Shown: positions 24,169 to 42,786 of the stretch, one piece after another
How the letters are laid out: each line of letters begins with the position of its first letter
How positions within the stretch are numbered: position 1 is the stretch's first letter
From: Candidatus Aminicenantota bacterium
Lineage (GTDB): Bacteria > Acidobacteriota > Aminicenantia > Aminicenantales > UBA4085
Assembly: GCA_003141555.1 (NCBI GenBank)
Contig: PLMN01000009.1
Coordinates: 127,195-191,194 of the forward strand
DNA length: 64,000 bases
Direction: 5' to 3'
Notes under the pieces: model-generated
What the model was told of the DNA's origin: nothing
Database searches by the model: none
Seen by the model: the letters and a program-made list of their open reading frames with translations, nothing else
Translations under genes and position numbers: made by a program

Positions 24169-25938
24169 TTACAGCCCCAGCTCCGCCAGAGTTTCCGGCC
24201 GCGGCGCGCCGTTCCGGTCCCAGCCGCGCACGGCGTAATAGTCGTCCAGCATCTCCTCGAGCCGGACCCGGCGGTGGCGCGACGGCCCGGTCTGGAATTC
24301 CTCGTTGAAAAAGCGGGGCGGCAGGGTGTCGTCGCCCCGATTGAATCCGGCCCGGTTGTTGAAGAGCCGCTCCAGGGTGTAAATGCGGCGGCCGATCGTC
24401 ATCAGCTCCTCGTCGCTGAAATCCAGGCCCGTGACCGTGCGCAGCATCTCGGTGAAGGTGGAGATCCCCACGGCAAACTGCAGGAAGCGGCAGAGGACGG
24501 CCGAATCCACCACGGCCGAGACGTCCTGGAACAGGGCCACGAGCTCGGCCTTGCCCGCGGTGGAGAAACGGTCCAGGAAGACGGGATGGCCGAGGATCTC
24601 GGGGCCGATCATGTAGGCCCGCATATGGCAGCCGCCGCGGTTGGACGTCGCGTAGGACAAGGCCATGCCCTGCGCGCCGCGCGGATCATAAGCCGGGATC
24701 TCCAGGCCCTTGACTTGCATGGCCAGCTCGGGACGGCCGTATTTGGCCGCCAGCCGCTTCGAGCCCAGGGCGAGCTCGGCCCCGATCCCCCGCCGGTAGG
24801 CCGTATCCGTCACCCATTCCAGCAGCTTGCCGGACTCGCCCCAGCGCAAGGTTTCCTTCCAGGCTCCCGTTTCGCTGAGCTCCATGGCGCAGCCGAGGGT
24901 GCTGCCCATGGTGATGGTATCGAGCCCCAGCTCATTGCAGGCGTAATTGGCCTCGGTAATGGCCGGGAGGTCGCTGATGCCCAGGTGGGCCCCGAACGCC
25001 CAGACCGTCTCGTATTCGGGCCCTTCGCCCTGCTTGTCCCGGGTCCGGGTGGTGCGGCCGCAGCCGATCGGGCACTTATAGCAGGCGCTCTGGCGCTGCA
25101 GCAGCGTTTCGGCGATCTTCTCCCCGCTCGTGCCCTCGGCATCGTTGAACACGCCCCGGCGGAAGTTCTCGACCGGGAACATGCCGTGGGCGTTGATGAT
25201 GTTGACCAGGACCGATGTCCCCAGGACCTGAAGCGATTTCCCGGTTACCGGGTTCTTGTCGACGATGCGCTCGAGGCGGTCCGCCAACGCCTTGTACTCT
25301 TCCGGATCGCTGATGGCCACGGGCCGGCTGCCGGAGGCGGCGATGGCCTTCAAGTTCTTGCCGCCCATGATCGCGCCCAATCCGCCGCGTCCCGCGGCCC
25401 GGTCCTTGTCGTTCATGATGGCGGCGAAGAGGATCCGGTTTTCGCCGGCCGGGCCGATGCAAGCCACCGACGCCTTGGACGAGAGCTCCGCTTGGATGCC
25501 CTTTTGGGTCTTCTGGGTATCGAGCCCCCAAAACGCCGAAGCGTTGCGGACGTCGACCTCGCCGTCATGGACCGAGAGGTAGACGGGCCCCGCCGCCCGG
25601 CCCTGGATGATCAGCCCGTCGATTCCGGCTCCCTTGAGCGCCGCGCCGAACTGGCCGCCGGAGCTCGAATCGCAGATGGTCCCGGTCAGGGGCGAGCGCG
25701 AAACGACCTGGTAGCGGCCGGAGGTCATCAGCGTGCCGGTCAGCGGACCGGTCATGAAGATCAGGGCATTGTCGTCGTCGAAGGGATCCGTCGCGCTCGA
25801 GCACAGATCACTGTACAGCTTGACGCCCAGCCCCCGGCCGCCGAGGTAACGGCGCCGCATCTCGTCGCTGACGGCAACGGTCTCCCGCTTCAAATTGCCC
25901 AGGTCGATCCTGACGATTTTCCCCATCCAGCCGTTCAT
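24169..25938 (-). CDS. aor: Aldehyde:ferredoxin oxidoreductase (tungsten AOR family)
   Basis: A 589-residue AOR-family protein. The N-terminal domain has the tungstopterin-binding pattern 'GPLTGTLMTSGRYQVVSRSPLTG' residues 64-86, the [4Fe-4S] ligands are Cys286, Cys289, Cys293 and Cys483, a spacing that matches Pyrococcus AOR, and 'SNRGGCHMR' lies near 432. Such enzymes oxidise aldehydes to carboxylates while reducing ferredoxin. Here the gene is 10 bases downstream of deoC, whose reaction releases acetaldehyde, so acetaldehyde is the obvious substrate (inference). The start at 25938 begins at the family-conserved 'MNGWMGKIVRIDL'; longer upstream frames lie inside deoC. The adjacent MoaD-like gene may serve its cofactor. 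Confidence 0.93.
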   Translation of the reverse strand: MNGWMGKIVRIDLGNLKRETVAVSDEMRRRYLGGRGLGVKLYSDLCSSATDPFDDDNALIFMTGPLTGTLMTSGRYQVVSRSPLTGTICDSSSGGQFGAALKGAGIDGLIIQGRAAGPVYLSVHDGEVDVRNASAFWGLDTQKTQKGIQAELSSKASVACIGPAGENRILFAAIMNDKDRAAGRGGLGAIMGGKNLKAIAASGSRPVAISDPEEYKALADRLERIVDKNPVTGKSLQVLGTSVLVNIINAHGMFPVENFRRGVFNDAEGTSGEKIAETLLQRQSACYKCPIGCGRTTRTRDKQGEGPEYETVWAFGAHLGISDLPAITEANYACNELGLDTITMGSTLGCAMELSETGAWKETLRWGESGKLLEWVTDTAYRRGIGAELALGSKRLAAKYGRPELAMQVKGLEIPAYDPRGAQGMALSYATSNRGGCHMRAYMIGPEILGHPVFLDRFSTAGKAELVALFQDVSAVVDSAVLCRFLQFAVGISTFTEMLRTVTGLDFSDEELMTIGRRIYTLERLFNNRAGFNRGDDTLPPRFFNEEFQTGPSRHRRVRLEEMLDDYYAVRGWDRNGAPRPETLAELGL

Positions 25939-25948
25939 CGTCGCATCT

Positions 25949-26779
25949 CTACTCGTAGAATTTGTTGTATTTGTCCACGTTCGGACAGGCCAGGCACTTT
26001 TTTTTGTAATACGCGTAAACGGCCTTGGGTTGCTTGTCGAGGTTGGCGAAGCGCGCCGGGCAGATGTGGCAGGGAATTTCCTCCTCCAGCCAAGCGGTCG
26101 GGGCGAATTTGTAAAGCGACAGCCCTTCGACAACGCCCACGCTGGAGCTGAGCCCCAGGCGCGAGGCCCCGGCCTGGATCAGCCGCCAGGCGTCCTTGAA
26201 GTTTCGGATCCCGCCCGCCGCCTTGACCCCGATCTCCGGCCCCACGGTCTGGCGCATGAGCCGGACGTGGGCCGGGAAAGCCCCGAACGGCCCGAACCCC
26301 GTCGAAGTCTTCACGAATCCGGCCCCGGCCTCGACGGAGAGCTTGCAGCCGGTTATGATCTCCTCGTCGGTCAGGTAGCACGTTTCCAGGATGACTTTGA
26401 CCAGCGCCGGCCGGCTGGCTTCGACCACGGCCCGGACGTCGTCGCGGACCAGGTCGTGCCTCTTGTCCCGCAGGGCGCCGACGTTGATCACCATGTCGAC
26501 CTCGGCGGCCCCGTTCCGCACGGCGTCCCCGGCTTCAAACGCTTTGGCCGCGCTCGTGCCGGCCCCGAGCGGGAAGCCGGCCACGGTGCAGACCAGGACG
26601 CCGCTGCCCGCGAGCAGCTCCTTGGCGTAGCGCGTGTAGGCGCCGTTGATGCAGACGGTATAGAAGCCGAAGCTGCGCGCCTCGCTGCAGAGGTTGGCGA
26701 TCTTCTTTTCGCCGGAGTGGGCGTTGAGCTCGGTATGGTCGATCATCTTGACCAGCGTTTCCCGGTCTAGATCGATCAT
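25949..26779 (-). CDS. deoC: Deoxyribose-phosphate aldolase with extra four-cysteine C-terminal tail
   Basis: A 276-residue enzyme. The class I aldolase core is complete: Asp95 in 'EVDMVINVG', the Schiff-base Lys157 in 'FVKTSTGFG' and Lys186 in 'GVKAAGGIRN'. It cleaves deoxyribose 5-phosphate to glyceraldehyde 3-phosphate and acetaldehyde. After the normal barrel end (about residue 228) there is a tail of roughly 45 residues with Cys237, Cys240, Cys262 and Cys265 in two CxxC pairs, which could bind zinc or a [4Fe-4S] cluster. Typical DeoC proteins end near 220-250 and lack this. The next gene is AOR, so the tail may touch the oxidoreductase or its ferredoxin partner (speculative). Confidence 0.93.
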   Translation of the reverse strand: MIDLDRETLVKMIDHTELNAHSGEKKIANLCSEARSFGFYTVCINGAYTRYAKELLAGSGVLVCTVAGFPLGAGTSAAKAFEAGDAVRNGAAEVDMVINVGALRDKRHDLVRDDVRAVVEASRPALVKVILETCYLTDEEIITGCKLSVEAGAGFVKTSTGFGPFGAFPAHVRLMRQTVGPEIGVKAAGGIRNFKDAWRLIQAGASRLGLSSSVGVVEGLSLYKFAPTAWLEEEIPCHICPARFANLDKQPKAVYAYYKKKCLACPNVDKYNKFYE

Positions 26780-27346: not shown

Positions 27347-27590
27347 ATGCCGGACAAAGCGGCCCAAAATTCCGATTCCACTCAGCGCTTCAATGACGGC
27401 GAAGGCGAACGTCCGACAGGCTGGCCCTACGACCGTTTCCGGATGTGCTACGACAAGCACTCCTGTCATCAAGTGGATTCTCGAAAATACCTTCAACGGG
27501 CGATTCATCGCCAATATCGAACAAAAGGGAAAGCCGAGCAAGTGGATTACGCTTAAAGCCTTGCAGGTTTTGAAGTTTTATCGGGGTTGA
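27347..27590 (+). pseudogene. Decayed alpha/alpha-toroid (prenyltransferase/squalene-oxidase-repeat-like) gene
   Basis: An ATG at 27347 behind a GCGGAGGAG site opens a frame containing 'TGWPYDRFRMCYDKHSCH'. Around 27465 the recognisable sequence switches frame and continues as 'KWILENTFNGRF' and 'GKPSKWITLKALQVLKFYRG' up to a stop at 27590. From memory, both blocks belong to one family of secreted toroid proteins, the first from an internal repeat and the second from the extreme C-terminus, so a large internal part is missing and the remainder is frameshifted. The plus-strand purine promoter begins inside its last codons. The family call rests on motif recall and needs a search. Confidence 0.4.
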
Positions 27591-27619
27591 CATCATCCGG
27601 CCCCGAATTTATGCTTGTC
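27587..27619 (+). promoter_or_regulatory. Promoter/operator element A of the purine-degradation operon
   Basis: Consensus TTGACA (27587-27592), a 17-base spacer and TATGCT (27610-27615), then TGTC. The whole 33-base element matches 58064-58096 at 30 of 33 positions, including 14 of 17 spacer bases and the bases after the -10 box. That is more conservation than a promoter alone needs. The first gene starts about 75 bases downstream of the expected transcription start. Confidence 0.75.
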
Positions 27620-27695: not shown

Positions 27696-30182
27696 ATGAG
27701 GCAAAACGGCGAATTCCTGACCGAGGCCCAGCTCAGGGCCGAGATCGAAGCGTGTGAATACTGCCGGGAGAAGCCCTGCCGCGAGGCCTGCCCGGCCGAC
27801 GTCTCCCCGGCCGACTTCATCATGGCCGTGCGATTAGGCGCGCCCTCCGATTATCGGCGCGCCGCGGCCCTGATCCTGGGCGCCAACCCCCTCGGCGGCG
27901 TGTGCGGCGCCGTCTGCCCCGATAAGTACTGCGTCCAGGCCTGCGCCAAAGCACCCGTGGACCGCCCGGTTCGCATCCCGGCGGTCCAAGCCGAGATCGT
28001 CCGCCGGGCCAAAAAGCTGAAGGCCCTGCCCAGTTTCCCTGCCGCGCCGGAATCGGGCCAGCGCGCCGCCGTGATCGGCGCCGGGCCGGCCGGGCTCGCG
28101 GCGGCGGCCCTTCTGGCCCGGAGCGGGCTGGCCGTGGACGTCTTTGAGCGCGAAGCCCGCGCCGGCGGCATGGCCAACCTCATTCCCGACGACCGGCTGC
28201 CCAAGGAAGTCCTGCGCTCGGACATCCGCTTCCTTGCCGGGCTGGGCCGCATCCGCATCCGCTTCCGCCGGCCCGTGGACGATCCCCGCTCCCTCCTTGA
28301 GCAGGGCTTCGCCGCCGTCGTCGTCGCCACCGGGCTGGACGTTCCTCTGCGCCTGGGGATTCCCGGCGAAGAGCAGGCCCAAGACTGGATCCGCTTTTTA
28401 TCCCAATCGACCCGCAAGTCCCCGGCCGGCCGCCGACTGGCCGTCATCGGCGGCGGAGCCGTGGCCGCCGACTGTGCCGAGACGGCCGCCCGTCAGAGAG
28501 CCTCGGTCGAGATGATCTGCCTGGAAACCCCCGGGGAGATGCCCCTGACGCCCGAGGAGCGAGACGGTCTGCTGAAGGCCGGCGTGCTGATCACCGGCCG
28601 CTCCGCCGTGACCGCGATCCGCGCCGCCGCCGGCGGGAATCTCGCCCGCATCCAGCCGATGCGCCTGCCGCCGGGCCGGACTTTCAGCCCTCGCCTCATG
28701 ACCCCTGATCCCCGCCAGCCGGCCTTTTCTCGGAGCTACGACGAGATCGTCGTCGCCATCGGCGCCCGCTCCCGGCTCACCGTTCAGGATGGCCCCGGGC
28801 TCTATTATGCCGGGGACATGGCCGAGGGGCCGGGCACGGTCGTCGCCGCCGTGGCCTCGGGCAAGAACGCCGCCCAACGCGCGCTCGACGGGCTCGCCCG
28901 CAAGCGCACTCCGAAGCAAACCGCGGGCAAGAGCCGCATCATCCTGCCCGGCCACAACCTGCGACCCGTCCCCCTCGATGCGGATTTCTTCGGCCGGACG
29001 ATCCTTTCGCCGTTCCTGCTCTCGGCCTCGCCGGCCAGCGACGGCGCCGACCAGCTCCGCCTCGCCTATCGGGCCGGCTGGGCGGGCGGCGTCCTGAAGA
29101 CGGCCTTTGACGGCGTGCCGATCCACATTCCCGCCGACTATATGTTCGTCTTTAACCAAGGCACCTACGGTAATTGCGATAACGTCTCGGGGCACGCTCT
29201 GGACCGCGTCTGCCGCGAGATTGAAGAGCTCGGCCGCGAGTTCCCCGAGCGGCTGACCGTGGCTTCGACCGGCGGCCCGGTCACGGGAGCCGCCGAGGCC
29301 GACCGCGCGGTCTGGCAGGCCAATACGCGAAAGTTCGAGGCGGCGGGAGCCATGGCCATCGAATACAGCCTGTCCTGCCCCCAAGGCGGGGACGGCACGC
29401 GCGGCGATATCGTCTCCCAGGACGCCGATTTGACCGCCCAAATCATCGAATGGGTTCTGTCGGGGGCTTCGCGGCCGGAGGTGCCGAAGCTCTTCAAACT
29501 GACCGGGGCGGTGACGGCTATCGCCCCGATCCTGAAGGCCATCCGGGCCGTTTTCGACCGCCACCCCCAGCATAGCGCCGGGGTGACGCTGGCCAACTCC
29601 TTCCCCGGCCTCGCCTTCCGGCCGGGAGCGAAGAAAAAATGGGACGAGGGGATCGTCATCGGCATGTCCGGCGAGGGTATCCTTCCCATCAGTTGCCTGA
29701 CCCTGGCCAAGGCGGCCGGCCTCGGCGTCCCCATTTCGGGCAACGGCGGCCCGATGAACTATCGCCAGGCCGCCGATTTCCTAGCCCTCGGGGCCGAAAC
29801 GGTCCAGTTCTGCACGCTCGTCCTGCACTATGGAGTCGAGATCGTCGAGGACCTGCACGCCGGGCTGAGCGGCCTCCTGGAAAGCCTGGGCCTCGGCTCC
29901 GTCTCCGAGCTGATCGGGCGGGCCCTGCCCCATCCGATCCGCGATTTCCCCGACCTGACTGCGGAGAAACGGATTTCGACCGTTGAGCGCCGCCTCTGCG
30001 TCCACTGCGGCAATTGCAGCCGCTGCCCCTATCAGGCGATCGAGCTCAGCCGCCGCGGGATCCCTCATACCGATCCGGCGCGCTGCATCGGCTGCTCGCT
30101 CTGCGTTCAGCGCTGCTTCGCCGGGGCGCTTTCGATGCGCGAGCGGAGCGCCGCCGAGCGCGCCGCACTTCGGGAGGATTAA
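27696..30182 (+). CDS. Dihydropyrimidine-dehydrogenase-like flavo-iron-sulfur oxidoreductase (PreT-PreA fusion)
   Basis: An 828-residue fusion with the domain order of dihydropyrimidine dehydrogenase. An N-terminal helical domain has two [4Fe-4S] Cys sets (20, 23, 28, 32 and 70, 74, 79, 83). An FAD fold follows ('GAGPAG' near 128), then an NAD(P)H fold ('GGGAVAADC' near 252). A dihydroorotate-dehydrogenase-like FMN barrel (about 430-745) carries the catalytic loop 'SLSCPQGGDGTRG' with Cys561. A two-cluster ferredoxin tail has Cys 768, 771, 774, 777 and 797, 800, 803, 807; the first set is spaced x2-x2-x2 instead of x2-x2-x3. DPD reduces pyrimidine rings. As the first gene of a purine operon, where E. 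coli has the multi-domain YgfK, this enzyme may reduce a purine or its ring-opened product (inference). Confidence 0.85.
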   Translation: MRQNGEFLTEAQLRAEIEACEYCREKPCREACPADVSPADFIMAVRLGAPSDYRRAAALILGANPLGGVCGAVCPDKYCVQACAKAPVDRPVRIPAVQAEIVRRAKKLKALPSFPAAPESGQRAAVIGAGPAGLAAAALLARSGLAVDVFEREARAGGMANLIPDDRLPKEVLRSDIRFLAGLGRIRIRFRRPVDDPRSLLEQGFAAVVVATGLDVPLRLGIPGEEQAQDWIRFLSQSTRKSPAGRRLAVIGGGAVAADCAETAARQRASVEMICLETPGEMPLTPEERDGLLKAGVLITGRSAVTAIRAAAGGNLARIQPMRLPPGRTFSPRLMTPDPRQPAFSRSYDEIVVAIGARSRLTVQDGPGLYYAGDMAEGPGTVVAAVASGKNAAQRALDGLARKRTPKQTAGKSRIILPGHNLRPVPLDADFFGRTILSPFLLSASPASDGADQLRLAYRAGWAGGVLKTAFDGVPIHIPADYMFVFNQGTYGNCDNVSGHALDRVCREIEELGREFPERLTVASTGGPVTGAAEADRAVWQANTRKFEAAGAMAIEYSLSCPQGGDGTRGDIVSQDADLTAQIIEWVLSGASRPEVPKLFKLTGAVTAIAPILKAIRAVFDRHPQHSAGVTLANSFPGLAFRPGAKKKWDEGIVIGMSGEGILPISCLTLAKAAGLGVPISGNGGPMNYRQAADFLALGAETVQFCTLVLHYGVEIVEDLHAGLSGLLESLGLGSVSELIGRALPHPIRDFPDLTAEKRISTVERRLCVHCGNCSRCPYQAIELSRRGIPHTDPARCIGCSLCVQRCFAGALSMRERSAAERAALRED

Positions 30183-31535
30183 ATGGCGAAACCGACGGAC
30201 CGGCAACCCGAACGCCTGCTGATCATTAACGGCCCGATCTTCACCGGCGGCGCGGATTTCGCCCTGCTCGAAGGGCACGGCCTCCTGCTCGAGGAGGGCC
30301 GTATCGCCAAGATCGCCCCGCTGCGCAAGCTTCGGTCCCAGGGCACGCGCCAGATCGACGCCCGGGGCAAGCTGATCATGCCCGGCCTGATCAACGCCCA
30401 TATGCATTTCTATAGCACGCTGGTGCGCGGGCTGGGCAAGGCCGCGCCGGCCCACGATTTCGACGGCGTGCTGCACAACCTCTGGTGGCGGCTCGACCGC
30501 AAGCTGACGCTCGAAGACACCTACTACAGCGCCTTGATCATGATGCTGGCCGCCGTGCGCAGCGGTACGACGACCTTGATCGACCACCACGCCAGCCCCG
30601 GGGCGATCCCGGGCTCCCTGAAGCGGATCGCCCGGGCGGGATCGGAGACCGGCCTGCGCATCGGCTTGGCATACGAAATTTCGGACCGGGACGGCGCTAA
30701 AGCCGCCGCTGAAGGACTAACCGAGAACGCCGAAGCCGTGCTCTATTGCCGTGATCACGGCGGCGAACACCTGCGGGCCTTGGTCGGCCTGCACGCCTCG
30801 TTCACCCTCTCGGATCTGACCCTGGCGCGCGCCGCAACCCTGGCCGCCGATTTGGGCGTAGGCTGCCATATCCACTGCGCCGAGGCGGCGAGCGACCAGG
30901 AGGACTGCCTGGCGAAGCACAAGATGCGCGTCGTTGAGCGCCTGAAGCGCCGCGGCATCCTCGGCCCGAAGACGATCGCCGCTCATGCCGTGCATGTCGA
31001 CAGGATCGAAATCGAGACGCTGGCCGACTCCGACACCATGGTCGTCCACAACCCGCAGTCCAACCTGAACAACGCCGTGGGCATCGCCGACATCGTGGCC
31101 ATGAAGGCCGCCGGGGTCCTGGTCGGGCTGGGCACGGACGCCATGACCGTGGATATGCTCGAAGAGCTGCGGGTGGCGCTCTGGGCCCAGCATTACGGCC
31201 GGCGCGACCCCGCCCAGGGCTTTGCGGAGGCGACCGGAGCCCTGTTCTCGGGCAACCCGGCCATCGCCGAGCGCATCTGGGGACTGCCTTTGGGCAGGAT
31301 CCGCGAGGGAGGGCCGGCCGACGTGATCCTGGTCGACTACGATCCGCCCACGCCGCTCGACGCCGGCTCCGTCCTGGGACATATCGTCTTCGGCGTGTCT
31401 CAGTCGGCGGTGGACACCACGATCGTCGCCGGGCGCGTCCTGATGGAAAACAAGGCCTTGAAGCTGGACATCGACGAGGGGCGCGTCGCCGCCCGCAGCC
31501 GCGAGCTGGCGACGGCCCTCTGGCAGCGTTTCTGA
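30183..31535 (+). CDS. ssnA: SsnA-like amidohydrolase
   Basis: A 450-residue amidohydrolase of the guanine-deaminase/chlorohydrolase branch: metal ligands His73 and His75 in 'NAHMHFYS', a later His in 'GCHIHCAEA' near residue 235, 'HAVHVD' near 263 and the Asp of 'GLGTDAM' near 318. Its layout matches SsnA, the putative aminohydrolase of the E. coli uric-acid/xanthine degradation region, which is thought to hydrolyse a purine-derived ring. The ATG follows the upstream stop without a gap (TAAATG) with GGGAGG upstream, so translation is coupled to the DPD-like gene. Confidence 0.85.
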   Translation: MAKPTDRQPERLLIINGPIFTGGADFALLEGHGLLLEEGRIAKIAPLRKLRSQGTRQIDARGKLIMPGLINAHMHFYSTLVRGLGKAAPAHDFDGVLHNLWWRLDRKLTLEDTYYSALIMMLAAVRSGTTTLIDHHASPGAIPGSLKRIARAGSETGLRIGLAYEISDRDGAKAAAEGLTENAEAVLYCRDHGGEHLRALVGLHASFTLSDLTLARAATLAADLGVGCHIHCAEAASDQEDCLAKHKMRVVERLKRRGILGPKTIAAHAVHVDRIEIETLADSDTMVVHNPQSNLNNAVGIADIVAMKAAGVLVGLGTDAMTVDMLEELRVALWAQHYGRRDPAQGFAEATGALFSGNPAIAERIWGLPLGRIREGGPADVILVDYDPPTPLDAGSVLGHIVFGVSQSAVDTTIVAGRVLMENKALKLDIDEGRVAARSRELATALWQRF

Positions 31536-31551: not shown

Positions 31552-32820
31552 ATGATCGATTATGCGGCGATCCTGGAGCGGGCCCATAAAGGCGAACAAG
31601 AGCTGGTCGATTTCCTGGTCGACCTGTTGGCCATCCCCTCCCCTTCCGGCAAGGAAGGGCGGGTCACGGAGCGGATCGCCGCCGAAATGCGCCGGCTCGG
31701 CTTCGACGAGGCGCGCATCGACGGGCTGGGCAACGTGATCGGCCGCATCGGGAACGGCCCGCGCCTTGTCGCCTTCGATGCCCACGTGGATACCGTCGAG
31801 GCCGGCGACCGGACGCAGTGGTCGTTCGATCCCTTCCAGCCGCGCGTCTCCGAGGGCAAAGTCTGGGGACGCGGTGCCGCCGACCAGAAGAGCGGCCTGG
31901 CGAGCATGGTCCACGCCGGACGCATCATCCGGGAGCTGGGCCTGGGTCGGAGTTTCACCCTGCTCTTCGTCGGCAGCGTCCAGGAAGAAGATTGCGAAGG
32001 GATGGCCTGGAAATACCTGGTCGAGGAGGAGAAAATCCGGCCGGAGCTGGTCGTGCTCACCGAGCCGACCAGCCTCGCCATCTACCGCGGCCACCGCGGC
32101 CGGATGGAGATCGAGGTCGAGGTCCGCGGCCGGAGCTGCCACGCCTCGGCGCCGGAGCGTGGCGACAACGCCGCTTACAAGGGCGCCCGTATCGCCTTGG
32201 AGATCGAGAAGTTGAACGAGAGGCTGGCAACCGACGTCTTCCTCGGCAAGGGCACGGTCGCCGTGACCGAGATCGCCTCCGGCTCGCCTTCGCTCTGCGC
32301 CGTGCCCGACACCACCCGCCTGCACCTCGACCGGCGCCTGACCGCCGGCGAGACCAAGACGAGCGCCGTCGCCGAAGTGCGCGAAGCGGCCGGCCGGGCC
32401 GGCATCCCCGAGGCCGAAGTGATCGTGCCCGAGTATCGCGTTCCCTCCTACACGGGGAAGATCGTTCCTTATGAAAAGTATTTTCCCACGTGGGTTCTCG
32501 AGGAAAGCTCCTCCTGGCTGAAGTCCGCCGCCGCGGCCTACGCCAGTCTCTTCGGAAAGGAGCCGAAAATCGACAAGTGGACCTTCAGCACCAACGGCGT
32601 CGGCATCATGCCCGTCTATGGCATCCCCTGCCTGGGATTCGGCCCCGGACACGAGCCGCAGGCACACGCCGCCGACGAGTACTGCCCCGTCCGGCATCTC
32701 CCCCTCGCCGCGGCCTTCTATGCGGCCCTGGTGGCTGCACTATCGGATAAAAGCGCGGCGCTTTCGGGCAAAGCCGCGCCGATGCCGGCTAAAGACCCGG
32801 CATCGGTGGGCAAGGGCTGA
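31552..32820 (+). CDS. ygeY: YgeY-like M20 peptidase/deacylase
   Basis: A 422-residue zinc hydrolase of the M20/ArgE-DapE family. 'FDAHVDTV' near residue 77 holds the first His-Asp pair, 'GRGAADQKSG' near 106 the bridging Asp, 'SVQEEDCEG' near 145 the catalytic Glu-Glu, and a C-terminal His is in 'GPGHEPQAH'. It most closely fits YgeY, found with ygeX and ygeW in purine-degradation clusters and thought to remove an acyl or carbamoyl group from a late intermediate. It ends with an Ala/Lys-rich tail of about 25 residues not expected for the family. It is 16 bases after ssnA. Confidence 0.82.
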   Translation: MIDYAAILERAHKGEQELVDFLVDLLAIPSPSGKEGRVTERIAAEMRRLGFDEARIDGLGNVIGRIGNGPRLVAFDAHVDTVEAGDRTQWSFDPFQPRVSEGKVWGRGAADQKSGLASMVHAGRIIRELGLGRSFTLLFVGSVQEEDCEGMAWKYLVEEEKIRPELVVLTEPTSLAIYRGHRGRMEIEVEVRGRSCHASAPERGDNAAYKGARIALEIEKLNERLATDVFLGKGTVAVTEIASGSPSLCAVPDTTRLHLDRRLTAGETKTSAVAEVREAAGRAGIPEAEVIVPEYRVPSYTGKIVPYEKYFPTWVLEESSSWLKSAAAAYASLFGKEPKIDKWTFSTNGVGIMPVYGIPCLGFGPGHEPQAHAADEYCPVRHLPLAAAFYAALVAALSDKSAALSGKAAPMPAKDPASVGKG

Positions 32821-32831
32821 TCCCGCACATC

Positions 32832-34058
32832 ATGACCGAATTTCAATATCGCTGCAGCCGCTGCGGCCGGACCTACGGACGGGACGAGGTCCGCTACTTG
32901 TGTCCCGAGTGCGGCCGCGACTATGCGCCCGGGATGCCGCTCATCGGCGTGCTCGAGGTCGAATTCGACTACCGCGACATCGCCAGACGCTTCGATCGCT
33001 CCAGGCCCGACTGGGACCTCTTCTCTCCGGTGGAGTGGGAATATTTCCCCGTCTATCCGGCGGGCAACACGCCCTTCGCCCCGGCGCCGCGGCTGGGCGA
33101 ACGCCTGGGCCGGCCGCGGCTCTGGATCAAGAACGACGGCCTCAATCCCAGCGGCTCGCTCAAGGACCGCGCCTCGCTCCTCGTCGTGGCCGAGGCGGCG
33201 CGCCTCAACGAAACGAAGGTCGTCTGCGCCTCGACCGGCAATGCCGCGAGCTCCCTGGCCGCCGTCTGCGCCGCCGCCGGCCGCCGGGCCGTCATCTTCG
33301 TCCCCCAGTCGGCGCCCCGGGCCAAGCTCATCCAGATGCTGATCTGCGGCGCCCGCGTCATTCCGGTGCGCGGCAGCTACGACGACGCCTTCCGGTTATC
33401 CCTTGAATACACGCAGCTGCGCGGCGGCCTGAACCGCAACACCGCTTATCACCCGCTGACGATCGAGGGCAAGAAGACCGCCGGCCTGGAGATTTTCGCC
33501 CAGAACGGGTTGCGCGTTCCCGATGCCATTCTGGTGCCCGTGGGCGACGGCGTCATCATCAGCGGTATTTACAAGGCCTTCCACGACCTGCGCGCCGCCG
33601 GGCTCTGCGAGCATCTGCCGCGGCTCGTCGCCGTGCAGGCCGAGACCTCGGCCGCGATCCATGACTACATCGTCAGCGGGATCTTCCGTCCGGCGGTCTC
33701 CCCCACGACCATCGCCGATTCGATTTCCGTCTCCGTGCCGAGCAACCCGGACTTGGCCCGCCGCGCCGTGCTGGAGAGCGGCGGGTTTTCGCTCACGGTC
33801 AGCGACGAGCGCATCCTGGAGGCGCAGGCGCTGCTGGCCGGCCGGACGGGGGTTTTCGCCGAGCCCGCCGCGGCGGCGGCTGCAGCCGCCCTCCTCTCCG
33901 ACGAAGCCCGCCAACGGCTCGATCCCGATTGGCAGGTCGTCCTCCTGGTCACCGGCCACGGATTGAAAGACATCGAAGCTCCGCTTTCGCGCTTACGCAT
34001 TCCCGAGGCGGTGCCGGCCGATTTCGCGGCGCTGCCCGAAGACATGCCGGAGAATTAG
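32832..34058 (+). CDS. Threonine-synthase-like PLP enzyme with zinc-ribbon N-terminus
   Basis: A 408-residue fold-type II PLP protein. Residues 7-30 form a rubredoxin-like ribbon (Cys8, Cys11, Cys24, Cys27). The PLP lysine is Lys111 in 'NPSGSLKDRAS', and a glycine/serine phosphate loop appears as 'CASTGNAASS' near residue 135. It resembles threonine synthase, but no homoserine-pathway gene lies nearby; in this operon it more likely performs an elimination or substitution on a purine-derived amino acid such as 2,3-diaminopropionate (inference). It is followed immediately by the hydantoinase gene (the ATG comes right after the stop). No ygeX-type diaminopropionate ammonia-lyase is present in the operon. 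Confidence 0.82.
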   Translation: MTEFQYRCSRCGRTYGRDEVRYLCPECGRDYAPGMPLIGVLEVEFDYRDIARRFDRSRPDWDLFSPVEWEYFPVYPAGNTPFAPAPRLGERLGRPRLWIKNDGLNPSGSLKDRASLLVVAEAARLNETKVVCASTGNAASSLAAVCAAAGRRAVIFVPQSAPRAKLIQMLICGARVIPVRGSYDDAFRLSLEYTQLRGGLNRNTAYHPLTIEGKKTAGLEIFAQNGLRVPDAILVPVGDGVIISGIYKAFHDLRAAGLCEHLPRLVAVQAETSAAIHDYIVSGIFRPAVSPTTIADSISVSVPSNPDLARRAVLESGGFSLTVSDERILEAQALLAGRTGVFAEPAAAAAAAALLSDEARQRLDPDWQVVLLVTGHGLKDIEAPLSRLRIPEAVPADFAALPEDMPEN

Positions 34059-35414
34059 ATGAAGACCCTGGTGCGCGGCGGCACGATCTATTCGCGGGGG
34101 CAAGCGGCTTCCGGAGACGTGCTGATCGAGGACGGCGTCATCGTCGCCGTCGGAGACTGCCGCGGATTGACCGGAGGCGCGCGCATCGTCGAGGCCGGCG
34201 GTTGCCATGTGCTGCCGGGGCTCATCGACCTGCACGTCCATATCGACGACACCATCGGCCGCTTTCGCCTGGCGGACACCTGGGCAAGCGCGAGCCGCAC
34301 CGCGGCTGCCGCGGGGATCACCACCCTCGGCGGCTTCATCACCCAAAGGCCGGAAGAGTCGCTCTCCTCGGCCGTCGAGCGCGCCTTCGAACGGGCCGCC
34401 GGCCGCTCCTTCTGCGACTACCTCTGGCACCTGACGCCGACCCGCTTTGCCGCGGACGATTGGACGGAAATCGAGCGGCACCTCGAGTCGGGCTGGCTCA
34501 CCTTCAAGTTCTACACGACCTACCGCGAGATCGGCCTCTACACGTCCTACGAGCGTCTGGCCGAGATCGCCGAGCGCCTGTCGCCGGGCGGGGCGCGCCT
34601 CCTGGTCCACGCCGAGGACGAGGATATCCTGGCCGAGGCACGGGCTTTGATCGGCAACGGGCCGCTTCGCGCGGCGGACCACGGCCGTCTGCGACCGCCC
34701 GAGGCCGAGCTGCGGGCGGTCGAGCTCGTGGCCGAAATCGCGGATGAGACCGGGGCCTGGTTCCACATCGTCCACGTTTCGACGCCGGAGGCGGCGGAGG
34801 CCATCGGCCCCGGCCGCGACGGGGCGCGCCTCACTTGCGAGACCGCGCCGCACTATCTTTTTCTCGACGACTCCTGGCTGAAGCGCCCCGACGGCCACCG
34901 CTGGCTGTGCACTCCGCCGCTGCGCGACGCGGCCCGCGCCGCCCGCCTGCGCGAGATGGCGCGCGAGGGCGCCTTCGACACCTTCGCCACCGACCACTGC
35001 CCCTACACCCTCGAGGACAAGGACAGCGGCCGAGGGGACCTGCGCTCCGCGCCGATGGGCTTGGCCGGGATCGGGGCGATGCCCCGGCTGATCTTCGCCC
35101 TGGATCGGGAGCTCCCGGAGCAGGCCTTCGCCAGGATGAGCCTCCATCTGGCGGATAATCCCGCGCGCCTGGCCGGCCTCGAGGGACGCAAGGGCGCGCT
35201 GGCCCCGGGCTTGGACGCGGACGTGGCCGTGTTCGAGGTGGCGGACCGCGAAGAGCCCTTGCATTCGGGAGGCGTCGGCAGCCCGGAAACGTACCCCGGT
35301 TTCCACAGCCCGTTGTGGCTGCGCCATCTTTTCCTGCGCGGCCGGCCGCTGGTCTCCGACGGCGCATGGAGCGGGACCGATCCGGCCCCGGGTAGGTGCC
35401 TATGGACGATCTGA
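34059..35414 (+). CDS. hyuA: Dihydropyrimidinase / hydantoinase-family amidohydrolase
   Basis: A 451-residue cyclic amidohydrolase. His59 and His61 ('DLHVHIDD') and Lys150 ('TFKFYTTY', carbamylated in the family) form the binuclear zinc site with later His residues ('LVHAEDED' near 183, 'HIVHVST' near 236) and the Asp of 'FATDHCPY' near 316. The product resembles HyuA/YgeZ of the E. coli purine cluster, as well as allantoinases and dihydropyrimidinases. It would hydrolyse a hydantoin- or dihydropyrimidine-type ring made by the upstream reductase and SsnA. Its last codons overlap the start of the molybdenum subunit gene. Confidence 0.88.
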   Translation: MKTLVRGGTIYSRGQAASGDVLIEDGVIVAVGDCRGLTGGARIVEAGGCHVLPGLIDLHVHIDDTIGRFRLADTWASASRTAAAAGITTLGGFITQRPEESLSSAVERAFERAAGRSFCDYLWHLTPTRFAADDWTEIERHLESGWLTFKFYTTYREIGLYTSYERLAEIAERLSPGGARLLVHAEDEDILAEARALIGNGPLRAADHGRLRPPEAELRAVELVAEIADETGAWFHIVHVSTPEAAEAIGPGRDGARLTCETAPHYLFLDDSWLKRPDGHRWLCTPPLRDAARAARLREMAREGAFDTFATDHCPYTLEDKDSGRGDLRSAPMGLAGIGAMPRLIFALDRELPEQAFARMSLHLADNPARLAGLEGRKGALAPGLDADVAVFEVADREEPLHSGGVGSPETYPGFHSPLWLRHLFLRGRPLVSDGAWSGTDPAPGRCLWTI

Positions 35415-37648
35415 AGGACAAGGCCTGGAGGAACGACGCCGCGGCCAAGGTAACCGGGCGCGCCCGCTACACCGATGACCTCAAGCTGCCGGGCATGCTC
35501 CATGCCGTTCCCGTCTACAGCGAATTCGTCCACGCCAGGCTGATCGAGGTCGACTCGGCGGCCGCGGCGAAATCGCCCGGCGTCGTGCGCATCATCACCG
35601 CGCGCGACGTCCCCGGCGTCAACCGGTGCGGACAGATCCTGAAGGACCTCCATGTTCTGGCCGACGACAAGATCCGCTACAACGGCGACGTCGCGGCCGT
35701 GGTCGTAGCCGAAACTCGGGCCCAGGCCGTCGCCGCCGCGCGGCGCGTGCGCGTGCTCGCCGCGCCGTGGCCGGAGGTCCTCGATCCCGAGCAGGCCCTG
35801 CTTCCGGGCGCGCCGCTCGTCCACGAGGAGCACGGCTCGAACCTCATCCACCGCCACGTGATCCGACGCGGCGACATCGACCGCGGTTTCGCTGAGTCGG
35901 CCCACATCATCGAACAGGAGTTCCGCACGCCTTTCGTCGAGCACGCCTATCTCGAGCCCGAGGCCGCACTCTGCCGCGTGCGCGGCGACGGCATCGTCGA
36001 GGTGCGGGGCAGCATGCAGCACCCCTATTCCACCCGCCGTTTCGTCTCCGAATTCCTCGGCTTGCCCCTGGCCCGCGTCGAGGTCGTGGGCACGCCCATG
36101 GGCGGCGGCTTCGGCGGCAAGGACGACACGGCGGCGCTCGTCTGCGCCCGAACCGCCCTCGCCGCGCTCCTGACCGGGCGGCCGGTCAAAATGACCTACG
36201 ACCGCGAGTGGTCGATGCGCGAGAGCTACAAGCGGCATCCTTATCTTATGCGCTACCGCATGGGCGTCGGTGCCGACGGCCTCATCAAAGCCGTGTACGT
36301 CCGCATGGTGGCCGACGGCGGCGCCTACTGCTCGGTCTCGCCCTGGGTGACCTGGCGCTCGACCGTGCAGTGCTGCGGCCCCTACGTCGTCCCAAACGTG
36401 GACGGCGAGGTCTCGAGCGTCTACACGAATAACGTCTTCACCGGCGCCATGCGCGGCTTCGGCTCGCCGCAGGTGAATTTTGCGATCGAGCAGCTCGTCG
36501 AGATGGCAGCCGAGAAGGCGGGCCTGTCCGGCGTCGAATTCCGCCGGCGGAACATGGTCCGCCAGGGCAGCACGACGATCACGGGCCAGGTCCTCGAGGG
36601 CCACGTCGTCAGCCTGTCCCAGGTCTTCGACCGCGTGCTGGCCGAGAGCGGCTACGAAGAGAAGCTCAAGCGCGCGTCCCGCGGCCGGGGCGAGGACGAT
36701 TATTACGGCATCGGCCTGGCCCTGAGCTACCGGGGCGTCAGCCTCGGCGCCGAGGGTACGGATTTCTGCGCCGCCGTGGTCAGCGTCCAGTATGACGGCT
36801 CGGTCCTTCTCGAGACCGGGGTCCACGAAAACGGCCAGGGCGCCGAGAGCGCCATGATCCTGATCCTGGCCGAAGAGCTTGGCGTGGAGCGCGGCCGCAT
36901 CGTCTATCGCCGCTCGTCGACCTCGAGCGTCCCCGACAGCGCCACGACGGTCGCTTCGCGGGGGACGATCATGGGCGGCGGGGCCGTCAGCCGCGCTGCA
37001 GCCGCAGTGCGCTTGCAGATGGCGGGCGCCATCGCCGCCGAGCTCGGCTGCGCGCCCGAAGAAGTTCGATTTGCCGGCGGCCGCCTGACCGCGCCGAACG
37101 GTAAGAGCGTCGATTTCACCGAAGCGGCGCGGCGCCTCTACCGCGACCAGAAATATCCCTACGCGCTCGGCGTTTTCCCCGCCCCGCACGTGACCTGGGA
37201 CGAGCACACGGGCCAGGGCAAAGCCTATTTCACCTGGGTCTATGGCTGCCAGGCCGTGGAATTGACGGTCGGCCGCCGAACCGGCCGGATCAAGCTCCTC
37301 AACGCCTGGGCCGCACACGATGTCGGCCGGGCCGTCAACAGCGCCGCGCTCCTCGGCCAGTTCTATGGCGGCATGGCCATGGGTGCCGGCTATGGCCTGT
37401 TCGAGGAACTGGCGATGAAAGACGGCCATCTGACTTCCCTCAACTACGACACCTACCGCATCCCGCGCGCGACCGACATGCCCGAGATGACGGCCATCAT
37501 CCTCGAAAACCGCGATCCCCTGTCGCCCTCGGGCGCGAAGAGCATCGGCGAGCCGGCCAACGAACTCATGGCGCCGGCCATCGCCAACGCCTATTTCCAC
37601 GCCACGGGGCAAAGGCGCTTCGAGCTCCCCGTCGGGAGGGTCAGATGA
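35402..37648 (+). CDS. Xanthine-dehydrogenase-family molybdenum-binding subunit (XdhD-like)
   Basis: A 748-residue molybdopterin subunit of the xanthine oxidase family: the N-terminal aldehyde-oxidase/xanthine-dehydrogenase 'hammerhead' domain, then 'GGGFGGKDD' near residue 236, 'GAMRGFGSPQ' near 345 and 'SIGEPANELMAPA' near 717, where the Glu is the catalytic base. It hydroxylates purines (hypoxanthine, xanthine or related) with electrons leaving by the small iron-sulfur subunit encoded next. Its active-site segment differs from the paralogue at 59543 ('VGEPPL'), so substrate scope may differ. The start at 35402 lies inside the hydantoinase 3' end, and its stop overlaps the next ATG. Confidence 0.88.
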   Translation: MDDLKDKAWRNDAAAKVTGRARYTDDLKLPGMLHAVPVYSEFVHARLIEVDSAAAAKSPGVVRIITARDVPGVNRCGQILKDLHVLADDKIRYNGDVAAVVVAETRAQAVAAARRVRVLAAPWPEVLDPEQALLPGAPLVHEEHGSNLIHRHVIRRGDIDRGFAESAHIIEQEFRTPFVEHAYLEPEAALCRVRGDGIVEVRGSMQHPYSTRRFVSEFLGLPLARVEVVGTPMGGGFGGKDDTAALVCARTALAALLTGRPVKMTYDREWSMRESYKRHPYLMRYRMGVGADGLIKAVYVRMVADGGAYCSVSPWVTWRSTVQCCGPYVVPNVDGEVSSVYTNNVFTGAMRGFGSPQVNFAIEQLVEMAAEKAGLSGVEFRRRNMVRQGSTTITGQVLEGHVVSLSQVFDRVLAESGYEEKLKRASRGRGEDDYYGIGLALSYRGVSLGAEGTDFCAAVVSVQYDGSVLLETGVHENGQGAESAMILILAEELGVERGRIVYRRSSTSSVPDSATTVASRGTIMGGGAVSRAAAAVRLQMAGAIAAELGCAPEEVRFAGGRLTAPNGKSVDFTEAARRLYRDQKYPYALGVFPAPHVTWDEHTGQGKAYFTWVYGCQAVELTVGRRTGRIKLLNAWAAHDVGRAVNSAALLGQFYGGMAMGAGYGLFEELAMKDGHLTSLNYDTYRIPRATDMPEMTAIILENRDPLSPSGAKSIGEPANELMAPAIANAYFHATGQRRFELPVGRVR

Positions 37649-38127
37649 AGCCCGCCGCCCCTCCCGCCCTCGTCGTCAACGGCCGCGGCATGCGCGTCTC
37701 CGCCGCGGATAAGCGCAAGAACCTCCTGACGTTCCTCCGCGAGGACCTGGACCTGACCGGCGCCAAGCGCGGCTGCGGCATCGGCCAATGCGGGGCATGC
37801 ACCGTCCTCGCCGACAACCGGCCGCTGCGCTCCTGCCACGCGCTCGTGGCCGATGTCCTCGGCCGCAGCCTGACGACCATCGAGGGGCTGGCCGCGCCGG
37901 ACGGCAGCCTGCATCCGTTGCAGCAGGCGTTCATCGATCACGGCGCGATCCAGTGCGGCTTCTGCACGCCGGGGATGGTCCTCACCGCCCACGCCTTCCT
38001 GCTCAAGCACCCCGCGCCGACCCGCGAGGAAGCTCGCAAGGCCATCGGCTCCAACCTTTGCCGCTGCACTGGCTACCAGCAGATCATCGACGCCATCCTG
38101 GCCGCCGCCCCCCACTACAAGAAATAG
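37645..38127 (+). CDS. Xanthine-dehydrogenase-family [2Fe-2S] subunit
   Basis: A 160-residue iron-sulfur subunit. The N-terminal plant-type cluster has Cys44, Cys49, Cys52 and Cys64, and the C-terminal four-helix domain carries the second cluster (Cys104, Cys107, Cys139, Cys141). It passes electrons from the molybdenum subunit upstream. No separate FAD-binding subunit is encoded in this operon, in contrast to 58101, so the electron acceptor could be ferredoxin, the DPD-like protein, or the FAD chain of the other operon (inference). The ATG overlaps the upstream stop (ATGA). Confidence 0.92.
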   Translation: MKPAAPPALVVNGRGMRVSAADKRKNLLTFLREDLDLTGAKRGCGIGQCGACTVLADNRPLRSCHALVADVLGRSLTTIEGLAAPDGSLHPLQQAFIDHGAIQCGFCTPGMVLTAHAFLLKHPAPTREEARKAIGSNLCRCTGYQQIIDAILAAAPHYKK

Positions 38128-38136
38128 GAGTCATTC

Positions 38137-39339
38137 ATGAAGGATATCCCTCTCGACGCCGCACTGCGGGAGCTCGACGGATTGAAGGCCGATCTCAATC
38201 TCTCCAACCGCGATTTTCTGCTGACCTGGGAACACTCCCTGGCCGAGCTCCGTTCGGTCCTGCTCACGGCCCGCATCCTCCGCGCCCTCCACGACGCTGG
38301 ACGCTCCCTGCGCGTGTTCGACACGGGGCTCGCCGTCTCGATCTTCCGCGACCAGTCGACGCGCACCCGCTTCAGCTTCGCCTCGGCCGCGAGCGCCCTG
38401 GGGCTTACGGTCTCCGACCTCGACGAGACCAAATCGCAGATCGCCCACGGCGAGACCGTGCGCGAAACGGCCGTCATGATCTCCTTCCTGGCCGAGGCCA
38501 TCGGCATCCGCGATGATATCTATCTCGGGGAGGGCGACCGCTACATGCGCGAGGTGGCTGCCGCCCTGCAGGAGGCACACGAGCAAGGCGTGCTTTCCCG
38601 GCGGCCGGCGGTGATCAACCTCCAGTCCGACCTCGACCACCCCACGCAGACGCTGGCCGACCTGCTGCATCTCGAGGACCGCTTCGGCGGGCTCGACAAG
38701 TTGCGGGGCCGGAAGTTCGTCATCTCCTGGGCCTATTCACCGAGCTACGGCAAGCCGCTCTCCGTGCCGCAGGGCCTGATCGGCCTCTTCCCCCGCTTCG
38801 GGATGGACGTGACGCTCGCTTATCCCGAAGGCTACGACCTGCTGCCCGAGGTCGTGGAACTGGCTGAAAAACAGGCGGCGGCCGCGGGCGGCGGCGCGCT
38901 CCGCATCAGCCACGACATGGCCGAGGCTTTCGACGACGCCGAGATCGTCTATCCCAAGTCCTGGGCGCCGATGCAAGTCGCGCGGCGGCGGACCGAGCTG
39001 CTGAAGAAAGGCGACAAAGCCGGGCTGCAGGCGCTCGAGAAGGAGTGCCTGGCGGAGAACGCGAAGCACGCGGACTGGGAGTGCGATGCGGCCAGGATGA
39101 AGCGCACGGCCAAAGGCGCCGCGCTCTACATGCACTGCCTGCCGGCGGACATCAGCGGCGTGTCGTGCGAGCGGGGCGAGGTGAGCAAGGACGTTTTCGA
39201 GCGCTATCGCCTCGAGACCTACCGCGAGGCGGCCTGGAAGCCCTTCGTCATCGCCGCCCTGATTTTCCTGACGCGCGTCCCGGATCCGCAGGCGGCGCTG
39301 CGGCGGCTGGTCGAGAACGGCGCGCCGCGCATCCGTTGA
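38137..39339 (+). CDS. ygeW: YgeW-like knotted carbamoyltransferase
   Basis: A 400-residue carbamoyltransferase. The carbamoyl-phosphate loop is 'STRTRFS' at residues 74-80, the 'DHPTQTLADL' block is near residue 168, and 'HCLPADISG' near 330 marks the second substrate site. Lengthened C-terminal segments and the overall pattern match YgeW/YgeW-like enzymes of purine clusters rather than OTCase or ATCase. It would work in the direction that yields carbamoyl phosphate from a carbamoylated intermediate, allowing ATP formation by a carbamate kinase (not encoded in the window). It starts 9 bases after the iron-sulfur subunit gene with a GGAG site. Confidence 0.88.
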   Translation: MKDIPLDAALRELDGLKADLNLSNRDFLLTWEHSLAELRSVLLTARILRALHDAGRSLRVFDTGLAVSIFRDQSTRTRFSFASAASALGLTVSDLDETKSQIAHGETVRETAVMISFLAEAIGIRDDIYLGEGDRYMREVAAALQEAHEQGVLSRRPAVINLQSDLDHPTQTLADLLHLEDRFGGLDKLRGRKFVISWAYSPSYGKPLSVPQGLIGLFPRFGMDVTLAYPEGYDLLPEVVELAEKQAAAAGGGALRISHDMAEAFDDAEIVYPKSWAPMQVARRRTELLKKGDKAGLQALEKECLAENAKHADWECDAARMKRTAKGAALYMHCLPADISGVSCERGEVSKDVFERYRLETYREAAWKPFVIAALIFLTRVPDPQAALRRLVENGAPRIR

Positions 39340-39347
39340 GGTATGAC

Positions 39348-40802
39348 ATGTCGAAAATCATCAAGCATATGAACGAGGCGGTCATCAAGAAGACGGCGGC
39401 CCGCTGCCGCGAGCGGGGCATCGTCATCCCCACGTTCGCCGAGCTCCGCGATCCGGAGAAGATTCCGGCGGCGATCAAGAAGCGACTGCCGGCCGTCGGC
39501 ATGGACGACATCAATCCGCTCAACCTCTTCCGCATCAGCTGGAAGAACGATGTCCGCTCGGGGCTCTACGGACCGGTCAATGCCCTCGAGCTTCCGCCCG
39601 CGGTCACCGGCGTGGCGGCCCGGATCGTCGGCTTGGTCGGCAAGCATTTTCCCACCGGCGCCCACAAGGTCGGCGCCGCCTTCGGCTGCCTGGTGCCGCG
39701 CCTCGTCTCGGGCGAGTTCGATCCCCAGGTCCACAAGGCGGTCTGGCCGTCGACCGGCAACTACTGCCGCGGCGGGGCGTTCGACTGTGCCCTGCTCGGC
39801 TGCCGGGCCGTGGCCATCCTCCCGGAAGAGATGTCCCGGGAGCGCTTCGAGTGGCTGAAGGCCATCGGCGCCGAGGTCATCGCCACCCCCGGTTGCGAGT
39901 CCAACGTCAAGGAGATCTACGACAAGTGCGACGAGCTTGCCGCCGATCCCTTGAACATGATCTTCAACCAGTTCGCCGAGTTCGGCAATCCGATCTTCCA
40001 CTACCAGGTCACCGGCCCCGCGGCCGAGGAGGCTTATCCGGCGCGCCGGAAGGACAAGGCGCGCCTGGCGGCGTTCATCAGCGCGACCGGATCGGCCGGG
40101 ACCATCGCCGCCGGCGACTATCTCAAAACCCTGCACCCGCAGCTGCGCATCGTCGCCACCGAGGCGAAGCAGTGCCCGACGCTCTTTCTGAACGGCTTCG
40201 GCGGCCACCGCATCGAGGGCATCGGCGACAAACACGTGCCCTGGGTGCACAACGTGCGGAACACGGACGCCGTGGCCGCGATCGACGACGAGGACTGCCT
40301 GCGCCTCCTCCGGCTCTTCAACGAGGAGGCGGGGCATCGCTATCTGCAGGGGCTAGGCGTGTCCGAAGCCGAATGCAAGAGCCTGGCGCTGCTGGGAATT
40401 TCGGGCATCTGCAACACGCTGGCGGCAGTCAAAACGGCCCGTTATTTCGAGCTAGGCCCGGACGATGTGATCTGCACGATTTTCACGGATTCGGTCGAAT
40501 TATACCGCTCACGCCTAGAAGAGATGCGCCGTGATCGCGGCCCCTACCGCGAGATCGACGCCGCCCGCGACCACGCGGCGGTCATCGGCCACCAGGGAAT
40601 CGACTGGTTCAAGGAGCTGGGCTATTACGACCGCAAGGCGATCCATAACCTCAAGTATTTCACCTGGATCGAGCAACAGGGCAAGACAAGCGAGGAGCTG
40701 AACGCCCAGTGGCAGCCGGAATACTGGCAGGAGATGTTCGAGGGCGAGATCGAAAATTTCGAGCGGCTGATCGCCGAGTTTAATCGGCAGGTAGGGTTCT
40801 AG
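39348..40802 (+). CDS. Fold-type II PLP-dependent lyase of the cysteine-synthase type
   Basis: A 484-residue PLP enzyme. The likely PLP lysine is Lys107 in 'KHFPTGAHKVGAAF', with the phosphate-binding 'WPSTGNYCRGG' block at 133-143 and 'ATGSAGT' near 245. It is longer than cysteine synthase (about 310) and is not a YgeX diaminopropionate ammonia-lyase, whose sequence I expected here. The C-terminal 130 residues hold an extra helical segment. As the last gene of the operon it probably deaminates the final amino-acid-like intermediate, giving a 2-oxo acid and ammonia (inference). The ATG at 39348 is chosen over longer frames that overlap ygeW. Confidence 0.75.
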   Translation: MSKIIKHMNEAVIKKTAARCRERGIVIPTFAELRDPEKIPAAIKKRLPAVGMDDINPLNLFRISWKNDVRSGLYGPVNALELPPAVTGVAARIVGLVGKHFPTGAHKVGAAFGCLVPRLVSGEFDPQVHKAVWPSTGNYCRGGAFDCALLGCRAVAILPEEMSRERFEWLKAIGAEVIATPGCESNVKEIYDKCDELAADPLNMIFNQFAEFGNPIFHYQVTGPAAEEAYPARRKDKARLAAFISATGSAGTIAAGDYLKTLHPQLRIVATEAKQCPTLFLNGFGGHRIEGIGDKHVPWVHNVRNTDAVAAIDDEDCLRLLRLFNEEAGHRYLQGLGVSEAECKSLALLGISGICNTLAAVKTARYFELGPDDVICTIFTDSVELYRSRLEEMRRDRGPYREIDAARDHAAVIGHQGIDWFKELGYYDRKAIHNLKYFTWIEQQGKTSEELNAQWQPEYWQEMFEGEIENFERLIAEFNRQVGF

Positions 40803-42621: not shown

Positions 42622-42786
42622 ATTTTTCCCCTCCCTTATTGGCTGGCCTTGTCGCATTCAAGGGGCGCTGTTTAGCGTCGTCTACACCTTCAGATTCAAC
42701 TTCCATCCTTAGATGATTCTTACATCCATGAGAGGACGCGTTCTTTAATTGGTCCCTGAATTATTCTTTCAGCCATTTCAAATAAA

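Follow-up and report, generated by a model that had tools for sequence, protein, structure and literature searches.

An SsnA-linked reductase family with dihydropyrimidine dehydrogenase architecture, a probable dearomatase of the reductive uric acid pathway

A nine-gene operon headed by a DPD-type reductase

The window analyzed here, a stretch of 64,000 nucleotides from a metagenome-derived lineage, carries nine genes that lie close together in one direction. The first encodes an 828-amino-acid reductase with the architecture of dihydropyrimidine dehydrogenase (DPD), and the second, an SsnA aminohydrolase, follows at a distance of 0 nt. The features of the operon, in window coordinates, are:

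27587..27615, plus strand: promoter-like TTGACA-17-TATGCT upstream of the operon, weakly supported
27696..30182, plus strand: DPD-architecture reductase, 828 aa, ATG open reading frame, candidate yanthine (2,8-dioxopurine) reductase
27717..28013, plus strand: its N-terminal two-cluster Fe-S domain, residues 8-106 (Pfam Fer4_20, 54.4 bits)
28056..28895, plus strand: its FAD and NAD(P)H domains, approximately residues 121-400 (Pyr_redox_2)
28968..29930, plus strand: its FMN (DHOD-type) barrel, approximately residues 425-745 (PreA model 427-820; DHODH structures, Z ~33)
29367..29387, plus strand: its catalytic loop S558-L-S-C561-P-Q-G, present in 82/82 family members
29982..30134, plus strand: its C-terminal ferredoxin, first motif shortened, second canonical (C797-C807)
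30183..31535, plus strand: SsnA aminohydrolase, ring opening of the dearomatized purine (NF005540, 485 bits; TIGR03314, 459.9 bits; both above cut-off)
31552..32820, plus strand: YgeY-family hydrolase, ureido cleavage (TIGR03526 and NF009555 above cut-off)
32832..34058, plus strand: PLP enzyme A, threonine-synthase-like (TIGR00260, 172.7 bits, cut-off 167.1)
34059..35414, plus strand: D-hydantoinase/dihydropyrimidinase-like amidohydrolase, HyuA role (TIGR02033, 248 bits, below the cut-off of 393; D-hydantoinase structures, E 3e-51)
35396..37648, plus strand: large subunit of a molybdenum hydroxylase, putative XdhD role (MoCoBD_1, MoCoBD_2); its start overlaps the preceding gene
37645..38127, plus strand: 2Fe-2S subunit of the molybdenum hydroxylase (Fer2_2)
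38137..39339, plus strand: YgeW knotted carbamoyltransferase (TIGR03316 and NF005538 above cut-off)
39348..40802, plus strand: PLP enzyme B, cysteine-synthase-like, 484 aa, last gene of the operon (NF006058, E 3e-4)

A sequence-only reading of this DNA had assigned the first protein the full DPD order (Fe-S, FAD, NAD(P)H, FMN barrel, ferredoxin) within 828 residues, with a catalytic loop around Cys561, and Pfam, phmmer and structure prediction all agree with that assignment. Pfam places Pyr_redox_2 at residues 124-360, DHO_dh at 541-726 (24.4 bits, slightly below the cut-off of 27) and Fer4_21 at 763-813. With phmmer, pig DPD matches in three collinear blocks that set Cys561 on DPD Cys671, and S558 aligns with DPD Asn668. 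Structure prediction was the check proposed for that reading, and the AlphaFold2 model, built with 75 family sequences, has the DPD fold (mean pLDDT 91.5, pTM 0.90) and resembles pig DPD from end to end: every one of its top 39 Foldseek matches in the PDB is a pig DPD structure (TM 0.82, normalized to query length), and VIA-align against 1gt8 gives a Z of 38.3 with 780 aligned residues at 3.4 A.

The N-terminal Fe-S domain carries the canonical motif CX2CX4CX3C, and its residues C20, C23, C28, C32, C70, C74, C79 and C83 are invariant in 75/75 sequences, as is Q98, which aligns with Gln156 of DPD, a cluster ligand. The 3-3-3 cysteine spacing noticed earlier proved to be a family trait. It belongs to the first motif of the C-terminal ferredoxin, CX2CX2CX2C (C768-C771-C774-C777, 29997-30026), which is unvarying in 75/75 relatives; the counterpart in PreA and UacX is CX2CX2CX3C. 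After the second Rossmann motif, the second Rossmann strand ends with Glu277 in 65/75 members, which points to NADH as the cofactor; Arg/Lys types at this position in 10/75 suggest NADPH in those proteins.

The remainder of the operon is best read against the reductive route of uric acid breakdown described by Li et al. in 2025, which is of interest for gout and has been the subject of a commentary (PMC12990295). In this route XdhD reduces urate to 2,8-dioxopurine (yanthine); yanthine is dearomatized by YgfK or, in C. difficile, by the PydA homologue UacX; SsnA opens the ring; and HyuA, YgeW, YgeY and YgeX complete the route to pyruvate and ammonia (PMC12507026). YgfK with SsnA, and UacX with SsnA, convert yanthine in vitro, the two genes acting as a couple (PMC12507026). 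The earlier placement of our reductase at the operon head, in the slot held by YgfK in E. coli, is borne out, as its gene abuts ssnA and YgfK directly precedes SsnA in an E. coli record. SsnA, YgeY and YgeW of the window all score above curated cut-offs. For the large hydroxylase subunit no NCBIfam XDH model scored above cut-off, the column of XdhD Glu606, a residue held to orient urate, falls in an insertion missing from this protein and is not clearly conserved, and the operon contains no FAD subunit for the hydroxylase. YgeX/DpaL above cut-off is absent from all nine genomes searched, the window genome and eight others with the same operon. By position the last gene could have been taken for YgeX, an identity ruled out by family models, which show that it is not DpaL. 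PLP enzymes A and B possibly stand in for YgeX/DpaL, with one of the two as a candidate for a new diaminopropionate lyase.

A divergent operon encodes cytidine deaminase, DeoC, an aldehyde ferredoxin oxidoreductase, pyrimidine-nucleoside phosphorylase and a nucleoside permease; the oxidoreductase gene (24169-26133, minus strand) lies within this pyrimidine/deoxynucleoside salvage operon (cdd, deoC, pdp), and the gene order is conserved in two relatives. A second xanthine-dehydrogenase-type molybdenum subunit of 972 aa at 58871-61789 (TIGR02965, 773 bits, below the cut-off of 849.5) begins with ~220 residues of no known family. Downstream of the reductase operon, a defense-like group (40939-46006, minus strand) comprises a protein of the HEC-06/Orf5 type (646 bits), an unknown protein of 353 aa and either a fragment or a variant of a DUF1156-type methyltransferase.

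A single clade and its linkage to SsnA

A scan of GTDB representatives recovered at least 80 full-length homologues. The 80 considered here, one of them (L090) from Candidatus Syntrophosphaera thermopropionivorans, are 48-81% identical and fall, by record title, into ~15 phylum-level groups, including Elusimicrobiota, Cloacimonadota, Chloroflexota, Ignavibacteriota, Eisenbacteria, Verrucomicrobiota, Myxococcota and Bacillota, so that the DPD architecture of the window protein is not a product of chance. The family forms one clade of 82 rows, supported at 100/100 in a careful tree.

For locus analysis, genes were called with a homology-weighted caller on high-GC loci. SsnA lies within 5 kb of the reductase in 43 of the 80 family loci and within 1 kb in 38; full-length SsnA is encoded elsewhere in 27 of 35 further genomes tested. 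Eight of 78 tested genomes had no full-length SsnA, seven of them giving partial or paralogous hits and one, a small bin, none. Among 99 relatives, four genomes encode the reductase, and these four and no others have SsnA above cut-off, a coincidence expected once in 3.8 million if the two were independent and relatedness is ignored. YgfK scored above cut-off in only one of 49 family genomes (G282, at locus L089). That myxococcal locus (G282:C189:86766-93589) carries YgfK, SsnA and the DPD-type protein side by side.

Full operons like that of the window occur at loci L036, L046, L047, L052, L053, L054, L060 and L075, and partial ones at L040, which reaches a contig end in relative G011, and at the rearranged L058. 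Copies of PLP enzyme B with 58-71% identity end the operon in L046, L047, L052, L053, L060 and L075. In many other loci SsnA is present and the downstream genes are not nearby. In four Elusimicrobia loci (L066, L099, L103 and L109) the reductase gene is immediately preceded by genes for a PanD-like aspartate decarboxylase and a hydantoinase, a different context that may reflect a varied end of the pathway. The L046 genome also encodes, at a separate locus (L194, G287:C32), a PreT-PreA fusion of 871 aa whose residues are of the canonical pyrimidine type, which provides a natural control beside a family member.

Surveys of the pathway mark its dearomatizing step by YgfK, by PF01180 (DHO_dh), the published marker for UacX, or by F420-reductase families, and Chloroflexota have been stated to lack YgfK and UacX and to possess an F420-dependent reductase instead (PMC12507026). 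Several Chloroflexota loci carry the present family directly before SsnA, with F420-biosynthesis and luciferase-like genes adjoining (names read by eye). In L069, L070, L071, L076, L081, L082 and L118, CofD, CofC, other F420 genes, the reductase family, SsnA and a luciferase-like F420 enzyme form one run. Among ten family members scanned, PF01180 was above threshold in four, and the Chloroflexota member gave no hit. Because the domain falls below threshold in 6/10 members, such surveys would miss the family or fold it into UacX, and this may explain the stated lack of such an enzyme in Chloroflexota.

How the family relates to UacX decides whether it is a separate solution to the dearomatizing step. 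Our UacX reference is a single sequence, Cetobacterium L188:17925-19025, from a C. difficile-type plasmid cluster (dpaL, ygeY, D-aminoacylase, ssnA, hydA); in a sampled Bacillota-related phylum we found YgfK-type reductases or no adjacent reductase, and UacX was not found. The barrel of the window protein is 23% identical to this UacX (E 4e-10) as against 31% to PreA (E 3e-42), and on these values a straightforward orthology with UacX was set aside. The family could still be orthologous to UacX but divergent, with an FAD/NADH module that was retained or acquired, and hence no independent solution. Both are PydA-related and found in SsnA clusters, a joint clade of the two is not rejected (AU p 0.18, with the single UacX sequence), and UacX also seems to have no Asn at the N668 column, though its loop is missing there. 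Against this, UacX does not possess the Cys loop, and the family branches with PreA/DPD and apart from UacX with support of 96/91, a placement obtained with one long-branch UacX sequence. Taken together, we regard divergent orthology as unlikely. Because of the AU value and the single UacX on a long branch, independent origin of the family, as judged from alignments and trees, is likely rather than proved.

Substrate pocket and proposed reaction

We propose that the window protein acts in the slot of YgfK and UacX, dearomatizing yanthine in the reductive anaerobic uric acid pathway as a member of a separate DPD-type family, and we hold this to be probable. The sequence-only reading had suggested a dearomatizing reductase for urate, xanthine or a derived ring. 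Preference for a urate-derived ring over pyrimidines is supported; the likeliest substrate is yanthine rather than urate or xanthine, since YgfK/UacX act in the published pathway once urate has been reduced to yanthine (PMC12507026).

It is also conceivable, though quite unlikely in our estimate, that the family reduces another purine-derived ring (xanthine, urate, 8-oxo- or amino-purines) or serves a different SsnA-linked route in lineages where YgeW and YgeY are not adjacent. The many loci in which SsnA stands without the downstream genes nearby point in this direction, as does the unclear conservation of XdhD Glu606. The latter also counts against the yanthine reading itself, together with the myxococcal genome in which YgfK, SsnA and a family protein are neighbors and the eight genomes that gave no full-length SsnA. 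Yet the window operon holds almost the full published set, and the published partner enzymes of SsnA act on yanthine (PMC12507026).

The pocket was compared with that of DPD by alignment, on which all statements about it rest. In DPD, contacts to a uracil analogue are made by N609, N668, S670, N736 and T737 (PMC10970046). Conservation of the full set, which would have counted against the earlier reading, is not seen in the family: N668 is replaced by Ser and E611 by Asp in 82/82 members, whereas Asn668 and Glu611 are found in 11/11 PreA/PydA sequences compared. In DPD numbering, N609, S670, C671, N736, K574 and K709 are retained in 82/82, and position 737 is Thr in 50 and Ser in 32 of the 82. 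C561 and the FMN-site lysines K468 and K601 are present in 82/82, and N493 and N634 are kept. The exclusion of pyrimidines claimed from sequence thus draws support from the two exchanges, but with N609, S670, C671, N736 and T/S737 kept it is to be taken as probable rather than established.

The protein could also be an ordinary dihydropyrimidine dehydrogenase, reducing uracil or thymine, with the hydantoinase-like protein as dihydropyrimidinase and YgeY as ureidopropionase. Its substrates would then be supplied through the divergent operon, which encodes cytidine deaminase and pyrimidine-nucleoside phosphorylase. This would agree with the DPD fold and Cys, with most uracil-binding residues being kept and with this genome having no other PreA above cut-off, but we consider it quite unlikely given that two residues invariant in the pyrimidine-type sequences are exchanged throughout a separate single clade, that the partner is SsnA and not only a dihydropyrimidinase, and that genomes G102, G282, G287, G300 and G301 encode a canonical PreA-type protein as well.

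In the chemistry of DPD, hydride is delivered to C6 and a proton from Cys to C5. By analogy, the yanthine reductase proposed here would be a self-contained flavin/iron-sulfur enzyme, NAD(P)H-dependent and most likely using NADH, in which electrons from NADH would enter at FAD and reach FMN by way of the [4Fe-4S] clusters of the N- and C-terminal domains. Hydride transfer from FMN to C6 of the purine would be accompanied by protonation of C5, presumably by Cys561. SsnA, encoded by the next gene, would hydrolyze the dihydro-product and so pull the reaction forward, and ring opening would lead, if DPD chemistry applies, to the published ureidomethyl-hydantoin and 5-ureido-dihydrouracil.

The pathway itself is already known; the new element is a family of enzymes, apparently unrecognized, that would carry out one step of it. 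We lean toward the broader view that this family is a self-sufficient, NADH-driven purine dearomatase derived from the DPD lineage by two pocket-residue exchanges, a further non-orthologous yanthine reductase serving anaerobic purine breakdown in ~15 phylum-level groups, mostly uncultured, from operons where other PLP enzymes also take the place of YgeX. If true, anaerobic purine breakdown extends past gut bacteria to sediment and groundwater lineages, the family is a natural experiment in which a DPD pocket (N668S, E611D) was switched from pyrimidine to purine, and a one-polypeptide alternative becomes available for engineered uric-acid-degrading probiotics.

Comparison with known reductases

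With mammalian DPD and bacterial PreT-PreA (PydA) the family shares domain order, fold, catalytic Cys and the Gln-ligated N-terminal cluster (Q98/Q156), as well as K574, K709, N609, S670 and N736. It differs from these enzymes in length (828 versus 1025 aa), in sequence (22-31% identity), in the N668S and E611D exchanges, in its shortened ferredoxin motif and in its partnership with SsnA. UacX likewise has a PydA-related FMN barrel and a C-terminal ferredoxin and resides in SsnA clusters, but at 366 aa it possesses neither the FAD/NAD(P)H module nor the Cys loop, and its identity to the family is 23%. YgfK, known here from E. coli, Enterococcus and Collinsella, is also encoded beside ssnA, combines FAD/NAD(P)H, Fe-S and FMN-type domains and is predicted to catalyze the same reaction; in contrast, it is ~1000 aa long, and its other catalytic part precedes the FAD module in the chain. 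Against the YgfK model (TIGR03315) only residues 23-299 of the window protein match, to YgfK 442-722, with 151 bits where the cut-off is 835, and identity as YgfK was rejected on this score and on the different domain order. For the same step in Chloroflexota, a putative F420-dependent reductase of a luciferase-like family has been proposed as an alternative (PMC12507026).
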